Source: Magnetococcales bacterium (GTDB lineage Bacteria > Pseudomonadota > Magnetococcia > Magnetococcales > DC0425bin3). Taken from it: a stretch of DNA of 51,970 nt. Shown here one piece after another: positions 9,480-51,386 of this stretch. The notes under the pieces were generated by a model. That model did no database searches and was not told the origin of the DNA. It worked only from the letters and a program-made list of their open reading frames with translations. How positions within the stretch are numbered: the first letter of the stretch is position 1; each line of letters starts with the position of its first letter. Where the stretch lies: NCBI GenBank assembly GCA_015228935.1, contig JADGCO010000020.1, forward strand, positions 1-51,970, in the 5' to 3' direction. The translations under genes were made by a program, and so were the position numbers.

Positions 9480-9541
9480 GATCGCTTGATCACTATAGCA
9501 CCATGCCAGACAGAATTCAGGAGGAGAAAGAGCGAACCGCC

Positions 9542-12478
9542 ATGTCAAAGTTTGTCGTCAAGTCGGTCAAAACAAAGTTTATATCTTTGTTTTTATTTAT
9601 GCTTTTGCTGACCTTGTCCGGAAGTGCCCTGGTATCTTTCAAGGTGACCGAGGATGCCATGGTGGAGAGTGCCCTGGCGGCCATGGACAATGTGAATCTG
9701 GAACTGGCACATCGGGCAGCAACGTTTCACAACAAGGCCAGGAGTGATCTGCTTCTTTCGGTAGAGAACGAGGTTTTCAAGGAATACTTTTCCCATCCGG
9801 ATTTTTTGGCGGGGGTGCGTCGTGATGCCAAAGGCGTCATTCAATTCTCCGAGGCGCAAAAATCGCTGAGAAACAGGATAAACTCCTGGTTGTTGTCGTT
9901 GCAGAAGCGGCTTCCCATTGTCGAATCCTGCCTGATTGACCGGACGGGTCAGGAACACACGCGCGTGACCTATGGCAAGATTGCCCTGGATGAGGATTAT
10001 TCGGACCGTGAGAACACTTTGCCATTTTTCCAGTCTGCCATGAATCTCAGAGCTGGTGAGGTCCATATACAGTATCCTTACATGTCCCCGGAAGCCAAAA
10101 AGTGGGTTTTTGCCTATGTTACCCCGATCATTCTGGAAAATGGGGAGAAACCGGGAATTTTACATTATGAATTGCCGGTATCGCTGTTTCAGGATCTGCT
10201 GCGGGGTGGGGATATCCATGACAGGAGTGAACAGGATCGGAGTCGATTGTTGATTTTGGATCCTGCGGGCCTGATCGTGGCGGACAGTCGCCAGAAAATT
10301 TCCCTGGACCAAAGATCCGATGCTGTGGTGGGCAAGGAAGATCCGCTGGCAAGCTCTCTTCCCAACGTCAGCACCATTGATACATCGGAACGTTTCCAGG
10401 CTCTTTTTGCCCGCATTCGGCAGGGTGAAACCGGCTCCGGCTGGTTCGAGGCACAGGGTGAACGACAATTCATGGTGTTTCGGCCTCTGACAACCTTTGG
10501 CTGGAGCGTGGTCCATATGCGTCCCTACCATGCCCTGTTGCAGGGGAAAAGGTCCCTGAATGAATTGAGATTTTATTTTGCTCTTGCCGCAATTTTGTCG
10601 CTGTTGGTGGCTGCGGGTGTCATATGGTATTTTTCGCGCCGGATTACGGAACCCTTGCACAGTCTGACTGGTTTTGCCCGGAAGATCGCCTCGGGCAACC
10701 TGGACTTTACCATGCGGGTCAGGGAGGAGACCCAGGATGAACTGGGTCTTTTGGCCCGCACCTTCAACCAGATGGTGGAAACCCTCGCCAGAACGACCGA
10801 TTCCAAGGAGTTTACCGAGGGTGTCCTGATGGGCATGGTGGATGGGTTGCTGGTCCTGGATATCGAGAACAAAATTCATCGTCTGAACCCGGCCATTCTG
10901 GAGATACTTGGTGAGAGTGAATCCGGACTCATGGGACGGCACTTTGATCAGTTGCTGCCCGATCCGGTATTTGCTGCCGAAATGTTTCGGGATTTGTTGG
11001 CCGGCAATCCGGTACGGGCGCGGGAAAGCGTGTTTGCCACGACAGACAGGCGGGTTGTTCCGGTTGCCATTTCGAGCAGTTTGTTGCACAAGGAAAATGG
11101 CGCAATTGCCGGGGTGGTCATCCTGGTGCAAAACATCAGTCAACGCAAGGCCGACGAAGAACGCCTGTATTTTCTGGCCAATTACGACCCCCTGACCGGA
11201 TTGCCCAACCGGATCCTGATGCAGGAACGTCTGGGACAGGCGCTCACCCGCATTCCCTGGCGCAAGAAAAGGCTCGGGGTCATGTTTTGTGATCTGGATC
11301 GTTTCAAGATCATCAATGATACCCTGGGCCATCGGGCTGGCGACGAATTGCTGAAAACCACGGCCAGCCGCCTGCTGACCTGTGTCCGGGACGGTGATAC
11401 CGTGGCACGCCTGGGGGGGGATGAATTTGTCATTCTATTGCAGGATGTCGAAAAGCAGGAGGATATTGTCCAGATTGCCGACAAGATCATTCAAGCCGTC
11501 TCCCGACCCATGATCCTGGAAAAAGGGGGGGAAGTCGTTGTCACGACAAGCATCGGTATCAGTTTTTCCCCCGATGATGGCAATACCGAAGAAATATTGC
11601 TGAAAAATGCCGATATTGCCATGTATCATGCCAAGGATGAAGGGAAAAACAAATATTGCTGCTACTCTGCGGATCTGCACAAAAAATCCTCGACCCGTCT
11701 GGGACTCGAAGCCGACCTGCGCCGTGCCGTCGAACAGGGAGGGTTTCTGGTTTATTACCAGCCACGTCTTGATCTGGGCAGGGGCCGGATCATGGGGGCC
11801 GAGGCCCTGGTGCGTTGGCAGCATCCAGAGAGGGGCATTGTACCGCCCGGGGATTTTCTCTCCCTGGCCGAAGAGTTGGGCGTAATCGAAGAGATCGACC
11901 GCTGGGTATTGAAGGAAGCCTGTCGGCAAAACCGGGTGTGGCGCAGACAGGGGTTTCCTGCCATTCGCATTTCCGTCAACATGTCCCATCGGCTGTTTCG
12001 GACCCCGGGACTGGTGCAGGTCGTTGCCCAGATGCTGGATGATCATGAACTGGAAGCGGATGCCCTGGAGCTGGAGCTGACCGAGTCCATTGCCATGGAC
12101 GAAATTTCCAATTCCATCCAAATTCTCCAAAGCTTGCGGAAAATGTGGATTCATCTGGCAGTCGATGATTTCGGTACGGGCTACTCTTCATTTGCCCATT
12201 TGCGGAAACTGCCCGTGCATGTTTTGAAGATTGACCGCTCCTTCATTCGTGATATTGCTGCCGATACCCAGGATGCGGCCATTGCCAAGGCCATCATCGA
12301 CATGGGACACACGCTCAACCTGCGTATCACGGCAGAAGGGGTGGAGACCGAGGATCAACTGCGCATCCTGACCGCACAAGGGTGCGATGAAATTCAGGGA
12401 TACCTGATCAGTCGGCCTGTCATGGCCGCCGATTTTGAAAAATTATTCCACCTCTCCCACCCGCCCCGGAAAATATGA
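9542..12478 (+). CDS. Membrane-bound GGDEF-EAL c-di-GMP signalling protein
   Basis: This 978-aa protein has a first membrane helix (about 13-33), a large periplasmic Cache-like sensor (to about 345), a second membrane helix, HAMP (about 365-420), a PAS domain (about 430-545), then GGDEF and EAL domains. The synthase site RLGGDEF (near 623) is intact, with an RDGD inhibitory site five residues before it. The EAL part keeps EALVRW, ELTES, DDFGTGYSS and LKIDRSF. Both synthesis and breakdown of c-di-GMP are therefore possible. The ATG at 9542 gives a natural membrane start, but AGGAGGAG lies 15 bases upstream; an ATG at 9503 is the alternative. Its last codons are repeated just downstream. Confidence 0.92.
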   Translation: MSKFVVKSVKTKFISLFLFMLLLTLSGSALVSFKVTEDAMVESALAAMDNVNLELAHRAATFHNKARSDLLLSVENEVFKEYFSHPDFLAGVRRDAKGVIQFSEAQKSLRNRINSWLLSLQKRLPIVESCLIDRTGQEHTRVTYGKIALDEDYSDRENTLPFFQSAMNLRAGEVHIQYPYMSPEAKKWVFAYVTPIILENGEKPGILHYELPVSLFQDLLRGGDIHDRSEQDRSRLLILDPAGLIVADSRQKISLDQRSDAVVGKEDPLASSLPNVSTIDTSERFQALFARIRQGETGSGWFEAQGERQFMVFRPLTTFGWSVVHMRPYHALLQGKRSLNELRFYFALAAILSLLVAAGVIWYFSRRITEPLHSLTGFARKIASGNLDFTMRVREETQDELGLLARTFNQMVETLARTTDSKEFTEGVLMGMVDGLLVLDIENKIHRLNPAILEILGESESGLMGRHFDQLLPDPVFAAEMFRDLLAGNPVRARESVFATTDRRVVPVAISSSLLHKENGAIAGVVILVQNISQRKADEERLYFLANYDPLTGLPNRILMQERLGQALTRIPWRKKRLGVMFCDLDRFKIINDTLGHRAGDELLKTTASRLLTCVRDGDTVARLGGDEFVILLQDVEKQEDIVQIADKIIQAVSRPMILEKGGEVVVTTSIGISFSPDDGNTEEILLKNADIAMYHAKDEGKNKYCCYSADLHKKSSTRLGLEADLRRAVEQGGFLVYYQPRLDLGRGRIMGAEALVRWQHPERGIVPPGDFLSLAEELGVIEEIDRWVLKEACRQNRVWRRQGFPAIRISVNMSHRLFRTPGLVQVVAQMLDDHELEADALELELTESIAMDEISNSIQILQSLRKMWIHLAVDDFGTGYSSFAHLRKLPVHVLKIDRSFIRDIAADTQDAAIAKAIIDMGHTLNLRITAEGVETEDQLRILTAQGCDEIQGYLISRPVMAADFEKLFHLSHPPRKI

Positions 12479-13181: not shown

Positions 13182-15394
13182 TGGTTTTTCTCCTCATTGT
13201 TTTTCATGTCGTCAGCCTGACGGATGCGTTGCAAGCGATTCATCATGTCTTTCCAACCAATCACCGAACTGTGGATGACCACATTCACCCTGGGAGGCAG
13301 GAGCGATCCGGCAACCAGATGCTGTTCATCGCCATCTGCCTGGGGCATGCCGTGCAGATGGAAGGTATCGTGACGCAGTTGGCAACGAAATCCCAGGGCA
13401 CGATAGCCATAATCCTTGAACATCGACAACAGGCCGCGTTGTAAAAACCCGCTGCTGCCGGAGCCGAGAAGATTGATTTGCTCGATGGCACGCACACTGA
13501 TCCGTTGCGGGGCGGAACTTTCCACCGAGGCCATTTCGGCCTTGAAGGCCACCGGCTCGCTGCCAGCCATGATCAATTCCTGCACCGATCCGGACAGGGT
13601 TCCCTCGATACGGCCCACTTCCATGAACTGGGTCAATTCACCCAAATCCATGCGATCCAGATCCATTCGTGCCCGCCATTCGGGAAGCGTGGAAGAGAGT
13701 CGATCCCCTCCCAGATCCGACAGACGGACCTTGCCCCCGAACAGGTGTGCCGTCAAGTCGCCTGTCGTCGTCAGCTTGCCGCGTTCAAGAACGATTTCTG
13801 GAAATTGACCTGTCACCTGTCCCTGGACCAGAGGTTTGTCAGCCTGGGCGACCACAAGTTGGCCCAAATCCAGATGGTCGATCTCCAGGGCAAGGGAGAG
13901 GCGTGCCCGGTCCAAGCCGACTGCGTCCAGACGGGCTTTTGCGAGGGTCAAACTGCCTCCGGCCAGCGGCACCACGACATCCCTCGCCAGCCGCAGGTCA
14001 TCGCCCACCATGCCGGGTTGGGCGGTGATTGCAGGAATGACCAGCCTCCCCAGGTGAATATCGCGCAGATGCAGGGAGCCATAAAGCGGTTGGGTGGCAA
14101 ACGGCAGGTCAAAATCCACTCCACCCACGCGGAAATCGTCGCCCGCCCCGGCAAAAAAACCGTTTTCCAGGCGGAGATTTCCCTGTAACTCCGGGCGTTC
14201 ACGGGTTGGCAGGAGACGCCAGGCCAATTCACCGGACAGAAGCCCCTGCATCTCACCCCTGGCCAATACCGGCAGGGTCTCTGCCAGGGGTTCGCGCAAA
14301 TAATCATGCAACACCTTGCCGAGATCCAGGCCGCTGAAACGGGTCCACCCTTGCAGAGGTTCGTGTGGCTGCACATCGACGCCCGCATGAATTTCTCCCA
14401 GGGTGGCACTGGTCAAAACGCCCGAGCCGGACCAGGTGCCTTTTTTGATCTGACGCCAGGCAAGATCCGCGACCACATGTTCGGCGTGCAGGTTGCCATA
14501 GAACTTGTCCGCCAGCCACTCCCCGGCCTGCACCTGCAAGCGGCTTTTCAGGTTCCAGGATGTTTTTCCATCCCCGTTCAAGGTTCCGGACAACCCACCT
14601 GCCAGCCCCTCCACCAGGGCATCGCCGGAACCGCCCGAGTGCCACACGACATCCCGAAACTGGACGGCGAATTGCCCTTTCCAGATGGCAGCCGGGGTTT
14701 GTGCGGCGGAAAATGTACCGGTCAGTTTGCCGGATCCCCTGGCGGGTACCTGTTCCGGGGTTGTGGCGGCAGCCTGGAAATGGTTGACATCCAGGTGCAG
14801 GGAGCCGGAAATTTTTCCGGATGTCGTTTGTTGCACATGCAAGGAGGTGCGGATGTGAATATTTTCCAGGTGCCACGGTCCCTGGGTCAGGCTGGCATCC
14901 CGGATGTGTATCCGGTCTATTCCCACCGGCAGGCCTGGCCAAACGGGCTGTGTGACTTTGGGGGCAGAGGTTTTACTGGTGTCTTTTGCATGTGGCAGAG
15001 TGATCCGGAGCTGATCCAATTCGAGGTTGGAGAGAATTCCTTGCAGCAATAAACCGGGCTGCATTCCCAGATGCAAGGCGGCCAGGGTCAGGGTTGTGCC
15101 ATCGGGTGCCACGCCGGTTACCTCACCCAGATGCAGAGTCGGCCAGGGCTGCATCCAGCCGACCTTGTTGACCGTGACCCGCCAACCCGTTTTTTCCGCC
15201 AGTTTTTCCAACACCCATTCCCGTCCCCAGGTGCTGAACAGACCCGCGCCGATCAGGATGACCGACAAGGAGAGGAGCAGCCCGCCGATTCCCAGGAGAG
15301 TGGCCAATATTCGCCAGGTTTGGTACCTGAATCTGTTCGAGCCTGTGCCTATTTTACGCACTTTGACCTTTCCAATCCCGTCCGCCATCCCCAT
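13178..15394 (-). CDS. YdbH-like AsmA-type intermembrane transport protein
   Basis: This 738-aa protein has one N-terminal membrane helix (about 27-50) and a long repetitive beta-rich periplasmic part ending in a DUF-type C-terminus with MFKDYGYRALGFRCQLRHD. This matches the YdbH/AsmA-like superfamily, elongated periplasmic bridges that carry phospholipids to the outer membrane. The gene overlaps the DUF1318 lipoprotein by 4 bp, as expected for a ydbH-ydbL type operon. I favour ATG starts at 15394 or 15388 over a TTG at 15421. The opposite neighbour, a cytochrome c gene, is divergent. Confidence 0.85.
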   Translation of the reverse strand: MGMADGIGKVKVRKIGTGSNRFRYQTWRILATLLGIGGLLLSLSVILIGAGLFSTWGREWVLEKLAEKTGWRVTVNKVGWMQPWPTLHLGEVTGVAPDGTTLTLAALHLGMQPGLLLQGILSNLELDQLRITLPHAKDTSKTSAPKVTQPVWPGLPVGIDRIHIRDASLTQGPWHLENIHIRTSLHVQQTTSGKISGSLHLDVNHFQAAATTPEQVPARGSGKLTGTFSAAQTPAAIWKGQFAVQFRDVVWHSGGSGDALVEGLAGGLSGTLNGDGKTSWNLKSRLQVQAGEWLADKFYGNLHAEHVVADLAWRQIKKGTWSGSGVLTSATLGEIHAGVDVQPHEPLQGWTRFSGLDLGKVLHDYLREPLAETLPVLARGEMQGLLSGELAWRLLPTRERPELQGNLRLENGFFAGAGDDFRVGGVDFDLPFATQPLYGSLHLRDIHLGRLVIPAITAQPGMVGDDLRLARDVVVPLAGGSLTLAKARLDAVGLDRARLSLALEIDHLDLGQLVVAQADKPLVQGQVTGQFPEIVLERGKLTTTGDLTAHLFGGKVRLSDLGGDRLSSTLPEWRARMDLDRMDLGELTQFMEVGRIEGTLSGSVQELIMAGSEPVAFKAEMASVESSAPQRISVRAIEQINLLGSGSSGFLQRGLLSMFKDYGYRALGFRCQLRHDTFHLHGMPQADGDEQHLVAGSLLPPRVNVVIHSSVIGWKDMMNRLQRIRQADDMKNNEEKNQ

Positions 15395-15558
15395 AAAATA
15401 CCCGATCAGGATGGCATCCAACCTGCCTGACGCAACTGTGCCAGCAATCCCGAGTCGAAAAAAACCAAAAAAAGGGATTGCATTGGAAAAAAATTGGACT
15501 AGATTGGCACCATGATCTTTTTGGAGAGATTGGCCCGGTGCGGAGGAATCCCTTTGCC

Positions 15559-15993
15559 ATGGATAAACTGATCAAGCCAACCACCTTTGCCATGTTGTTG
15601 ATTGCCGCAGGGGCGACGGTGGCCATCATTTTTTGGAGATTGCACGGCGATGTCATGATTGGTCGGCGGTTGGTGGAAAATCATTGTGGCGTCTGTCACG
15701 ATATCACACCGAACAAGAAAAACGAAAAGGGGCCTTATCTGTGGGGCATTGTCAATCGACCCGTGGGCGCTGCCCAGGGCTATAAGTACAGCCAGGCCTT
15801 CATGCGCCATGCCCAGGAACACCCCTTCATCTGGACCGAGGACAACCTGAACCTGTTTTTGACCAATCCCCAACGTTTTATTCCCAACGTCCGCATGTCC
15901 GAACATCGGGTGGAGCATCAAATCTCCTTTGACGGCATTGAAGACCCGGCCAACCGCCGCGACCTGATTGCCTATCTGAAGAGACTGCAATAA
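15559..15993 (+). CDS. Membrane-anchored class I cytochrome c
   Basis: This 144-aa protein has an N-terminal membrane helix (about 8-27, uncleaved or signal anchor) and a single haem c site CGVCH (Cys43, Cys46, His47). The likely sixth ligand is Met113 in NVRMSEH, placed as in mitochondrial-type cytochromes with KGPYLWGIVNRPVG in between. It would shuttle electrons in the periplasm. The ATG at 15559 has GGAGGAA ten bases upstream and is preferred over longer frames. It is the first gene before mfd, with a 46-bp gap, and is divergent from the ydbH-like gene. Confidence 0.9.
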   Translation: MDKLIKPTTFAMLLIAAGATVAIIFWRLHGDVMIGRRLVENHCGVCHDITPNKKNEKGPYLWGIVNRPVGAAQGYKYSQAFMRHAQEHPFIWTEDNLNLFLTNPQRFIPNVRMSEHRVEHQISFDGIEDPANRRDLIAYLKRLQ

Positions 15994-16039
15994 ATGTAAT
16001 ATAATTTTTTGCCACAGTTTTTTTCAACACTCCAGCAGA

Positions 16040-46988: not shown

Positions 46989-47063
46989 GGTCAAGCGCAG
47001 AGTGGTCAAGCGCAGAGTGGTCAAGCGCAGGGTGGTCAAGCGCAGGGTGGTCAAGCGGGGTTC
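46989..47063 (-). repeat. 15-bp tandem repeat, five units
   Basis: GGTCAAGCGCAGAGT units start at 46989, 47004, 47019, 47034 and 47049, the last degenerate. The array fills the gap between the DUF3142 gene stop and the start of the large exported protein. It is in frame with the latter and would encode LRLTT repeats if translated from an upstream start. Confidence 0.88.
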
Positions 47064-48055: not shown

Positions 48056-48613
48056 ATGGTCGCTCAAGAGTTGTTGCGTTTTCGCAACATGTTGCAGGAC
48101 GAAGGGGTCATGTTTTGCTACAGCGGCTATGTCACCGAGGATGTGTTGTCGGGCATGGGCAAGGCTCTGCGCAGCAAGCTGACCATCGACACCGGTGACA
48201 AAAAAATGGTCCGGAATTTGTTCTCTCTGTTTGTCGAACAGGTACAAAACATCATCCGCTATTCGACGGAGCGCGAACAAGATACGAGTGGCGACAAACC
48301 AGAAGAAATCTCTTTTGGCGTCGTCGTGGTTGGAAAAGCTGCCGACGGACGCTACTATGTCAATTGTGGCAATCTGGTTCATTTGACGGATGTGCCGCGT
48401 TTACGAGGGAAGCTGGATCACTTGCGTTCTCTGGATCAGGATGGCATCCGTGCCCTTTACAAACAGGTTCTTAAAGGAGATGTTCCCGAAGGGAGCAAGG
48501 GAGCCGGCGTGGGATTCATAGACATGGTCCGCCTGGCTACCCAAGGCTTCGAGTATGAATTCATCGAGGTCAATGCTGACAGCGCATTTTTTTCATTCAA
48601 GGCTTACGTTTAA
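48056..48613 (+). CDS. SiaB-like protein kinase
   Basis: This 185-aa protein (MVAQELLRFRNMLQDEGVMF) resembles SiaB, the kinase that phosphorylates SiaC in the SiaABCD partner-switching pathway of Pseudomonas. Its YYVNCGNLVHLTDVPRLRGKL segment and AGVGFIDMVRLAT are shared with DUF6272-type proteins. It would keep SiaC phosphorylated and unable to activate its target. The ATG has AAAGGA nine bases upstream. siaC-like follows 25 bp later. The SiaA phosphatase is not in the window. Confidence 0.85.
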   Translation: MVAQELLRFRNMLQDEGVMFCYSGYVTEDVLSGMGKALRSKLTIDTGDKKMVRNLFSLFVEQVQNIIRYSTEREQDTSGDKPEEISFGVVVVGKAADGRYYVNCGNLVHLTDVPRLRGKLDHLRSLDQDGIRALYKQVLKGDVPEGSKGAGVGFIDMVRLATQGFEYEFIEVNADSAFFSFKAYV

Positions 48614-48638
48614 CGACACCTGCATGGGACACCAACAT

Positions 48639-49028
48639 ATGGACAATATTCATATCAAATCCTCCGAACGGGCACCCGCCATTGATTTTGACTTTTCAAG
48701 CAACCAATTTGCCTTGCAGGGCGAGTCCTATCCCGAGAATGTCGCGGAATTTTATGGTCCGATCCTGAACAAGTTCAAGGAACATGTCACCGGACTTGCC
48801 GGAGCCAGTCTGATCTTTGACTTTGATCTGATCTATTTCAACAGCTCCAGTGCCAAAGTACTCATGGGATTGTTCGACACCCTGGACCAGGTTGCTGCCA
48901 AAGGCAACAAGGTGGTGATCAACTGGCATTTTGAGGCGGACGATGACAACATGCAAGAACTGGGTGAAGAGTTTGGCGAGGAACTGTCCAACGCCGAATT
49001 CAATCTGGTGCCCAAAACCGCACCTTGA
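48639..49028 (+). CDS. SiaC-like partner-switch protein
   Basis: This 129-aa protein belongs to the DUF1987/SiaC family: FDFSSNQFALQGESYPENVAEFYGP at the N-terminus in two blocks, then DLIYFNSSSAKVLMGLFDTL. In Pseudomonas the unphosphorylated form binds and activates the diguanylate cyclase SiaD, and phosphorylation by SiaB at a Thr in an NTSS motif turns it off. Here the site reads NSSS (Ser69), so the acceptor would be Ser. The ATG at 48639 follows GGGA at nine bases; an ATG at 48624 is less supported. An HD-GYP gene follows instead of siaD. Confidence 0.87.
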   Translation: MDNIHIKSSERAPAIDFDFSSNQFALQGESYPENVAEFYGPILNKFKEHVTGLAGASLIFDFDLIYFNSSSAKVLMGLFDTLDQVAAKGNKVVINWHFEADDDNMQELGEEFGEELSNAEFNLVPKTAP

Positions 49029-49110
49029 ATATACCTGGAACTTCCTGGACTGCTTGCAGGCATGTCCCATTGTATCTATTCAGAACCCCTGCAAAAAAAG
49101 AGTTTGATAT

Positions 49111-49195
49111 GAAAGACTTTGTTGGGGCTCCGCTTCAAACCCCGCCAGGAGGAAGGGCACAGCCCTTCCTCCTGGACCTCCATCCCTGTTTTTCA
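49111..49195 (-). repeat. Dispersed two-hairpin repeat, copy 3
   Basis: The minus-strand copy contains the 13-bp stem (49145-49175) and a degenerate second hairpin, plus the GGGATGGAGG flank found in copy 2. It separates the siaC-like gene from the HD-GYP gene. Read together with the other copies, it shows the element is about 80 bp long. Confidence 0.82.
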
Positions 49196-49295
49196 AACGT
49201 TTTTTAGCAGGGAAGCTGAATAGTTACGTCCCATTCAAGTCTGAAGGGTGCAAAACCAGGATGGGTGCCACCGGATACCGTCGGGAGTCGCATGC

Positions 49296-51386
49296 ATGAG
49301 TTATGATGCTTTTGAAGAGGAACAACAGATCCTGGATGCCGGTGATGCCCTGCTGGAGCGGTCCGATTTGACGACGGAGGCGTTGCGCCAGGCGTTCTTG
49401 GTCCATCATGCGGCCTACCGCAAACTGATCAAGACAACCAGACGGTTGGTCAAGGTAAACGACCGCAACGAAGAGTCTCTCAAGGATGCCAACCTTCAGG
49501 TCAGAAAACAGCAAACCGAGTTGCAGGAAGCCCATGCCGAACTCGGTCGCCACGCCGAAGTGCTGGAAGCCAAGGTGCGTGATCGTACCAAGGCGCTGGT
49601 CTACTCCCAGGACAAACTGCAAAAACTGGTCGAATTGGGCATAGCCCTTTCTGCCGAGCAGGATTTGAATGTATTGCTCAAGCGCATTTTATGGAGTGGC
49701 AAGGAGATCAGTCAGGCCGATGCGGCCACGCTCTATCTGCGCACCGAAGACAATCATCTGCGTTTTGCCCTGCGTTCCAAGACGGATGAAATGCCCAGTT
49801 TTACCATTCCCTTGTACGATCCGGTCACGGGTCAGCCCAACCTGAACTATGTGTCCACCTGTGTGGCCTTGAGCGGGGAGTCGGTGCGGATTGATGATGT
49901 CTATCAGGAGACCCGATTCGATTTGTCCGGCACCCGGAAAGTGGATGCCGAAACTGGTTATCGCACCGTTTCCATGTTGACCGTATCGCTTAAATCCCGC
50001 AAAGGGGAGTGTATCGGAGTCTTGCAACTGATCAATTCCCTCGACCAGGAAACCGGTGCTGTCCAGCCGTTCGATGCCAATCTGACCGGATTTGTCGAAG
50101 CCCTGGGAGCCCAGGCTGCCATTGCCCTGGATAATCTGTATCTCATCAAGGCCCAGGCAGAACTGTTCGATTCCGTGATCAAGATCATTGCAGCAGCCAT
50201 CGATGCCAAATCCCCGTATACCGGCGGCCATTGCGAGCGGGTGCCGGAATTGGGTCGCATGCTGGCTGAGGCCGCCTGTCAGGAAACCACGGGACCATTT
50301 GCCGAATTCAGCATGGATACCGATGCCTGGCGGGAATTTCATCTGGCGGGTTGGTTGCACGACTGCGGCAAGGTCACCACGCCGGAATATGTCGTGGACA
50401 AGGCCACCAAGCTGGAGACCATCTACAACCGTATCCATGAAATCCGGACCCGTTTCGAGGTGTTGCGCCGGGATCGTATCATTGATTTTCAGGAACGCCT
50501 CCTCGCCGGTGGCCAGCGGGATCTTTTGCAGGCAGAACTCGATCAGCAGTTGCAGAAACTGAACGAAGATTTTGCTTTTGTTGCCGAAAGCAATGTCGGT
50601 GGAGAGTTCATGAGTCCCAGCCGCCTGGCGCGCCTGGAGCAGATTGCCGCCATTGAATGGACACGGTATTTTGATGACCGTCTGGGAATCTCCGAGGGTG
50701 AACTGGAGCGGTTGCGGGATGTGCCCAAAACACCGTTACCAAACCGGGAAAAGTTGCTGGCCGACAAGCCGGACATGATCGTGCCACGCAAGACACACCC
50801 CCTGTCGTATGATCCGGCCCACTGGGGCTTCAAGGTGACCGTCCCGGAGGCGTTGTACAACTATGGAGAATTGTACAATCTGCGCATTGCCCGGGGAACC
50901 TTGACCGAAGAAGAACGCTTCAAGATCGTCGAGCATGTCATCAATACCATCGTCATGCTCGACAAGCTGCCGTTCCCCAAAAACATGCAGCGGGTCAGTG
51001 CCTTTGCCGGTGCCCACCACGAGACCATGATCGGCACCGGTTATCCGCGCCGCCTCAAGCGCGATGACATGCCGGTGCAGGCCCGCATCCTGGCCATTGC
51101 CGATATTTTCGAGGCCCTGACGGCCTCGGATCGCCCCTATAAAAAGGCCAAAACCGTCAACGAGGCTTTGCGCATCATGAAATTCATGTGCAAGGATCAG
51201 CATATCGATCCGGATTTGTTTGAACTGTTCGTCAAGAGCCAGGTCTGGAAAAGTTACGCCGATATTTATCTTCATCCACACCAGATCGATAAGGTGGATT
51301 TGGCTGCCTATCTGACCTTGCCGGAGAAATGTGTTTTGCCTCAGTTGAAATCCGACAATTCCATCTTTTGGTTAAGCTATATATGA
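49296..51386 (+). CDS. GAF/HD-GYP c-di-GMP phosphodiesterase
   Basis: This 696-aa cytoplasmic protein has a coiled coil (about 60-110), a GAF domain (about 130-290) and an HD-GYP domain. HDCGK lies near 354 and HHETMIGTGYP near 573; HD-GYP enzymes usually have these motifs about 60 residues apart, so an insert of about 150 residues sits between them. HD-GYP proteins hydrolyse c-di-GMP. GGGAG is eight bases before the ATG. It follows siaB- and siaC-like genes, so it may be the switch's output. The IS element begins just after its stop, and its last residues could have been altered by that insertion. Confidence 0.9.
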   Translation: MSYDAFEEEQQILDAGDALLERSDLTTEALRQAFLVHHAAYRKLIKTTRRLVKVNDRNEESLKDANLQVRKQQTELQEAHAELGRHAEVLEAKVRDRTKALVYSQDKLQKLVELGIALSAEQDLNVLLKRILWSGKEISQADAATLYLRTEDNHLRFALRSKTDEMPSFTIPLYDPVTGQPNLNYVSTCVALSGESVRIDDVYQETRFDLSGTRKVDAETGYRTVSMLTVSLKSRKGECIGVLQLINSLDQETGAVQPFDANLTGFVEALGAQAAIALDNLYLIKAQAELFDSVIKIIAAAIDAKSPYTGGHCERVPELGRMLAEAACQETTGPFAEFSMDTDAWREFHLAGWLHDCGKVTTPEYVVDKATKLETIYNRIHEIRTRFEVLRRDRIIDFQERLLAGGQRDLLQAELDQQLQKLNEDFAFVAESNVGGEFMSPSRLARLEQIAAIEWTRYFDDRLGISEGELERLRDVPKTPLPNREKLLADKPDMIVPRKTHPLSYDPAHWGFKVTVPEALYNYGELYNLRIARGTLTEEERFKIVEHVINTIVMLDKLPFPKNMQRVSAFAGAHHETMIGTGYPRRLKRDDMPVQARILAIADIFEALTASDRPYKKAKTVNEALRIMKFMCKDQHIDPDLFELFVKSQVWKSYADIYLHPHQIDKVDLAAYLTLPEKCVLPQLKSDNSIFWLSYI

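Follow-up and report, generated by a model that had tools for sequence, protein, structure and literature searches.

Which output does a SiaB/SiaC partner switch control when the gene that follows it encodes not the diguanylate cyclase SiaD but an HD-GYP phosphodiesterase? This question is raised by contig JADGCO010000020.1 (NCBI GenBank assembly GCA_015228935.1) of a magnetotactic-type bacterium of the order Magnetococcales, a stretch of 51,970 nucleotides (hereafter the window) which represents one complete contig of a 4.7-Mb genome that is 100% complete by estimate. Near its end, a SiaB-like gene and a SiaC-like gene are followed by a gene for a GAF-bearing HD-GYP protein, as described in an earlier note on this DNA and as borne out by Pfam, NCBIfam and phmmer searches. 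In our judgement, the HD-GYP protein is very probably a client of SiaC, to which it would bind through a coiled-coil stalk at its N-terminus. Since the enzyme carries the docking stretch of the Pseudomonas partner, it appears that the switch has been connected to another output. On balance, we favor a SiaABC partner switch in which an HD-GYP phosphodiesterase has taken the place of SiaD as output and in which docking most likely activates the enzyme. The features concerned are:

48056-48613, forward strand: siaB-like Ser/Thr switch kinase gene, 185 amino acids (Pfam, NCBIfam, phmmer)
48639-49028, forward strand: siaC-like phosphoprotein gene, 129 amino acids (Pfam, phmmer)
49296-51386, forward strand: gene of the stalk-GAF-HD-GYP protein, the predicted SiaC client, 696 amino acids (Pfam GAF and HD_5)
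49296-49580, forward strand: predicted SiaC-docking stalk at the N-terminus, residues 1-95 (profile A2, alignment, model)
49443-49472, forward strand: core docking motif RLVKVNDRNE, residues 50-59, aligned with SiaD K77-Q86 (KVARISDRYQ)

In the crystal structure of the SiaC-SiaD complex (7E6G), SiaC grips the stalk of SiaD, whose contact residues include R74, K77, V78, R80, I81, S82, D83, R84, Y85 and Q86; SiaC Thr68 is bonded to S82 and Q86 of SiaD, and phosphorylation of Thr68 prevents binding (PMC8457831). The N-terminus of the window HD-GYP protein, AYRKLIKTTRRLVKVNDRNEESLKDAN, aligns without gaps and in register with SiaD from 7e6g, RYHKQLRRLEKVARISDRYQQMMRDLN, the motif core reading KVNDRNE compared to RISDRYQ in SiaD, and the core K/R-x-x-R/K-x-S-D-R-x-Q/E is nearly invariant across clients. 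An AlphaFold2 model of the protein (mean predicted local distance difference test score 80) shows the GAF domain preceded by one uninterrupted helix that spans model residues 28-121. On the other side of the putative interface, the SiaC residues contacting SiaD are mostly retained (Pseudomonas aeruginosa QDYYNTSIMDRLED, window EEYYNSSAMDNLEE): Y31, Y65, N67, S69, M75, D79, L107 and E110 are identical to P. aeruginosa, while T68 is replaced by Ser. This Ser69 occupies the position of the Thr68 phosphosite (YFNSSSAK vs. YLNTSSIK), Ser is also found there in the aligned Magnetococcales relatives, and from the alignment it is most likely the phosphosite of the window SiaC.

The SiaB-like protein matches DUF6272/PF19788, the SiaB family of Pfam, with 137 bits (48056-48610) and NCBIfam NF038262 ('SiaB family protein kinase') with 185.5 bits at a cut-off of 85; among solved structures, phmmer retrieved P. 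aeruginosa SiaB (6kko_A) at E 1.5e-17, and the E-x-x-x-N pattern is kept (FVEQVQNIIRY vs. YIEMTQNIRHY in 6kko_A). The SiaC-like protein scores 134.5 bits against Pfam SiaC/PF09345 (cut-off 24.5; 48639-49025) and E 1.3e-19 against P. aeruginosa SiaC in the same type of search. Its start lies at 48639 or 48624, within a mechanically longer open reading frame (ORF), and 25 bp separate siaB from siaC. The HD-GYP gene starts at ATG 49296 rather than GTG 49248, and its product matches Pfam GAF with 43.7 bits and HD_5 with 157.5 bits (49293-51383). Among the window ORFs, Pfam revealed no GGDEF gene beside the siaB-siaC pair.

For tracing the stalk in other proteins, profile A2 was built from 20 Magnetococcales stalks of HD-GYP, cyclase, kinase and PP2C proteins, with no GGDEF protein included. 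Applied to 28 SiaC loci of other orders, it matches the gene neighboring SiaC, mostly a SiaD-like GGDEF gene, with E down to 3e-17, and no gene besides SiaC neighbors was found among the matches listed. Searches of the PDB were less productive, as the N-terminus of the HD-GYP protein alone gave nothing useful there and a profile from HD-GYP stalks alone reached SiaD at E 3.9. Judged by the A2 search of SiaC loci, by the genome searches outside the order and by the in-register alignment, and not by a PDB E-value, the stalk is homologous to the docking stalk of SiaD.

The linkage of the two genes can be followed through the order. SiaC is present in 37 of the 61 genomes searched (the window's and relatives), which provided 51 further SiaC loci and, together with the window, 52 neighborhoods in Magnetococcales. 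A large HD-GYP gene adjoins SiaC in 23 of these 52 loci, spread over nine families, and usually lies no more than 62 bp downstream of SiaC or overlaps it. This adjacency is far above chance. The neighborhood survey proposed in the earlier note found a conserved SiaC/HD-GYP linkage, so that a lack of such linkage, named there among the grounds for refutation, does not apply. Runs of PP2C(SiaA)-SiaB-SiaC-HD-GYP occur in L054, L065, L069, L075 (the window's genus) and L079, where PP2C and SiaB are read as a single ORF, and such four-gene runs resemble the siaABCD operon, the HD-GYP gene standing where siaD would be. Outside Magnetococcales, SiaB-SiaC-HD-GYP is found in Solidesulfovibrio aerotolerans (L149, Desulfobacterota), and in a metagenome-assembled genome of the Rhodospirillaceae (L158) one SiaC is surrounded by three stalk-bearing proteins, namely an HD-GYP protein, a class III cyclase and a histidine kinase.

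It could be argued that SiaC and the HD-GYP protein are mere neighbors, the stalk being a generic coiled coil and the SiaC target lying elsewhere. Coiled-coil profiles do match unrelated proteins, and 29 of the 52 Magnetococcales SiaC loci have no adjacent HD-GYP gene. Against this, the stalk is almost confined to genomes with SiaC and is mostly found beside it. Counting genomes with both, SiaC only, stalk only and neither gave 35/2/1/10 in Magnetococcales (p 1e-7) and, at E 1e-4, 19/9/0/339 outside the order (p 3e-25), where at most 12 candidates per genome were scored and misses are possible. Within the best 80 loci of the HD-GYP subfamily, SiaC adjoins 8 of 11 stalk-bearing enzymes and none of the 69 stalkless ones (p 6e-9; like the other two, a Fisher p-value which ignores the relatedness of genomes). 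In the window's genome, SiaC occurs exactly once, and the HD-GYP was the single stalk protein found with the stalk profile; a stalk-bearing GGDEF protein equivalent to SiaD was not among the findings. Taken together, mere neighborhood appears very improbable.

A tree of the HD-GYP proteins built on the catalytic region, with the stalk left out, requires at least five changes of the stalk label. SiaC adjacency changes together with the stalk in all five independent tree pairs, a number too small to reach p 0.05. That the stalk-bearing HD-GYPs form one clade was rejected (approximately unbiased test, p-AU 1.7e-4), gain and loss being indistinguishable. The HD-GYPs of the window and of its congener L075 fall into separate parts of the tree, yet each adjoins SiaC. 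The HD-GYP nearest to the window's on this tree (L179:5011-7911, 966 amino acids) retains only a weak remnant of the stalk and has no SiaC in its vicinity; its docking site may have been lost.

Several observations, in addition to the neglect of relatedness in the p-values, weigh against the favored explanation. At the two positions of SiaD which bind Thr68, the window enzyme has Asn55 for Ser82, which is rare in the family, and Glu59 for Gln86, which is normal for HD-GYP clients; therefore, the affinity may differ from that of SiaD. The mixed stalk profile matches SiaD in the PDB only weakly (E 0.04), with some other coiled coils scoring higher. Co-occurrence has its exceptions as well: G028 has SiaC with no stalk detected, as does G005, which is cut at a contig end; G032 (88% complete) has a stalk without SiaC; and L140, L141 and L211, the latter two on short contigs, each have a stalk HD-GYP but no SiaC in the stretch examined. 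Finally, a gap of 267 bp with a repetitive hairpin parts siaC from the HD-GYP gene in the window, compared to a spacing between -37 and +62 bp in 20 of 21 same-strand relatives, and hence co-transcription of the two is not assured. The hairpin derives from the following element:

49118-49199, no strand: REP-like dispersed palindrome of 82 bp between siaC and the HD-GYP gene, which does not belong to the switch

About 46 copies of this palindrome, most of them 93-97% identical, are present in the window's genome, and it forms a strong hairpin (z -3.7). A role as terminator was considered and rejected, as a terminator scan recognized none there.

Even with these points, the partnership of SiaC and HD-GYP protein suggested in the earlier note is strongly supported at the sequence level by linkage, the SiaD-like stalk, the SiaC contact residues and co-occurrence. 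The same note had seen no SiaA phosphatase, which holds for the locus, where window ORFs and Pfam gave no SiaA-type gene beside the siaB-siaC pair. It does not extend beyond: operons of relatives carry SiaA, and loss of SiaA from the genome was rejected, as SiaA-like PP2C proteins are encoded on other contigs. Among 12 PP2C matches elsewhere in the genome, a receiver-PP2C protein on contig C39 shares 46% over nearly its full length with the operon-borne SiaA-type protein of L069 and 59% over 227 residues with that of the congener. A solute-binding/PAS/PP2C protein on contig C21 (1229 amino acids) shows 57% end to end with the operon-borne SiaA-type proteins of L076 and L081. For both, NCBIfam SiaA is the top match, at scores under its equivalog cut-off.

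With a probable client in view, the next question concerns the reaction it would catalyze. Its domains are arranged as follows:

49662-50129, forward strand: GAF domain (PF01590; residues 124-279 when translated from 49293), a possible second input
50202-51242, forward strand: HD-GYP catalytic domain, with an insertion at roughly 50421-50897 inferred from a gap in the PmGH alignment

The best PDB fold match is 4mcw, PmGH, at E 3.1e-17. Numbered from ATG 49296, the metal ligands H312, H355, D356, H547, H574, H575 and D603 are invariant in 15 relatives, and so are K359 (HDxGK), G582-Y583-P584, R613 and K616. PmGH Glu185 is replaced by Tyr; therefore, the enzyme belongs to the Y/F subfamily and is probably dinuclear (PMC4159591). 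Cyclic diguanosine monophosphate (c-di-GMP) is, as far as we can judge, likely its main substrate. Alternatively, the client might act chiefly on 3'3'-cyclic GMP-AMP (3'3'-cGAMP) or pGpG, or as a protein partner, which would be compatible with either sign of control. The full HHExxDGxGYP consensus is departed from (HHETMIGTGYP), its Asp being Ile in the window and variable among relatives (Thr, Ala, Leu, Asn or Asp), and PmGH Asp183 is Ser, lying in the signature DAKSPYTGGH, which resembles that of V-cGAP3, an enzyme listed as hydrolyzing 3'3'-cGAMP (PMC8177086). On the other hand, all seven metal ligands of the dinuclear class, the HDxGK Lys, GYP and the counterparts of the Arg and Lys which contact guanine in PmGH (PMC4159591) are invariant, and such a different main role is considered unlikely, if still worth weighing.

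How the switch might operate can be sketched by analogy with SiaABCD. SiaB would phosphorylate SiaC, most likely on Ser69, and a SiaA-type PP2C encoded elsewhere in the genome would remove the phosphate. The α2/α3 face of unphosphorylated SiaC would then dock on the HD-GYP dimer at the motif RLVKVNDRNE of its coiled-coil stalk, as it does on SiaD, and alter GAF/HD-GYP activity, most likely by holding the active dimer. Signals leading to SiaC dephosphorylation would thus lower the cyclic dinucleotide level. The 'inverted logic' of the earlier note, in which SiaC controls messenger breakdown, is put forward here as a hypothesis drawn from this analogy. Its sign could also be the opposite: SiaC might dock on the stalk and inhibit the HD-GYP enzyme, so that dephosphorylated SiaC would raise the messenger as in Pseudomonas and the logic would not be inverted. 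Sequence does not fix the sign: SiaD and the HD-GYP protein have the interface in common, whereas the output and the intervening GAF domain are unlike SiaD. Yet docking of SiaC stabilizes the active SiaD dimer (PMC8457831), and in HD-GYP enzymes of the PmGH type a long helix between the domains holds the dimer together (PMC4159591); therefore, activation is the simpler expectation if a stalk dimer is stabilized. Inhibition is hence regarded as unlikely, and docking would probably activate the HD-GYP enzyme.

Compared with known systems, the window shares with P. aeruginosa SiaABCD the SiaB and SiaC families, the gene order B-C-output enzyme and the docking stalk motif K/R-x-x-R/K-x-S/N-D-R-x-Q/E, and relatives of the window have SiaA upstream. 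It differs in its output (GAF/HD-GYP vs. GGDEF in SiaD), in having one clear stalk motif where SiaD has two, in Ser vs. Thr at the phosphosite and in the lack of SiaA at the locus; likewise, its SiaB and SiaC score below the equivalog cut-offs that NCBIfam sets for the Pseudomonas proteins. PmGH, the GAF/HD-GYP phosphodiesterase of Persephonella marina (4MCW), has the same GAF-HD-GYP order and most of the catalytic residues, but differs at the positions of Glu185 and Asp183 and lacks the long stalk and the large insertion. Regulation of a c-di-GMP enzyme by a phosphorylation-controlled, STAS-like protein is known for HsbA-HsbD and BgrV-BgrR (PMC8457831), which, however, employ STAS proteins, not SiaC (PF09345), and diguanylate cyclases. 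Vibrio cholerae V-cGAP3 (VCA0931, 5Z7C) has the HD-GYP signature DAKSPYTAGH, but PDB profile searches gave no SiaC-docking stalk in it and its domain layout is unlike that of the window enzyme.

Elsewhere in the window, a further c-di-GMP enzyme, a dCache-HAMP-GGDEF-EAL protein without docking stalk, is encoded at 9503-12478. Transposase-type genes come next after the HD-GYP gene: an HTH_Tnp_1 transposase and then an ORF at the contig end (51412-51968) lie directly downstream, where the contig breaks. A 15-bp tandem repeat of 4.6 copies (46989-47057) marks the start of a minus-strand ORF of 905 amino acids, and no Rfam families were found in the window.

The stalk itself is not limited to phosphodiesterases, as five kinds of stalk-bearing proteins, each a putative output, were identified: diguanylate cyclases, HD-GYPs, class III nucleotide cyclases, histidine kinases and PP2C proteins. 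Stalk-bearing class III adenylate/guanylate cyclases lie near SiaC in L058:7486-8523, L070, L080, L085 (with an additional PilZ domain), L086, L063, L084, L125 and L158:10463-11488; by their sequences, synthesis of cyclic AMP or cyclic GMP may be a SiaC output. Stalk-bearing histidine kinases near SiaC (L043:1528-2580, L074:8804-9805, L115, L122, L042:5250-7508, L158:8518-9366) suggest control of a two-component kinase by a Ser/Thr switch. In L050, a stalk-bearing PP2C (15010-16038) about 5.7 kb from SiaC shares the locus with a stalk HD-GYP and could be a client or a SiaC phosphatase.

There is thus good reason to think that the stalk is an exchangeable connector of general use, that one coiled-coil motif serves five kinds of SiaB/SiaC output and that it has been joined to HD-GYP enzymes more than once, providing control over breakdown. 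While the Sia switch and HD-GYP enzymes were both known already, the stalk common to several output classes is the wider result. SiaC-type proteins have been suggested to modulate adjacent proteins, and it was asked why a separate binding protein is kept (PMC8457831). A search of the literature, with most subscription journals and preprints outside its reach, found no report linking SiaC to an HD-GYP client, and in the literature consulted SiaC is studied for its activation of a single Pseudomonas diguanylate cyclase. The stalk offers an answer at the level of sequence: as a portable docking site, it predicts the enzyme of each SiaC, including HD-GYPs that would break the messenger down. Small soluble proteins would allow a direct test both of the client prediction and of the sign of control.

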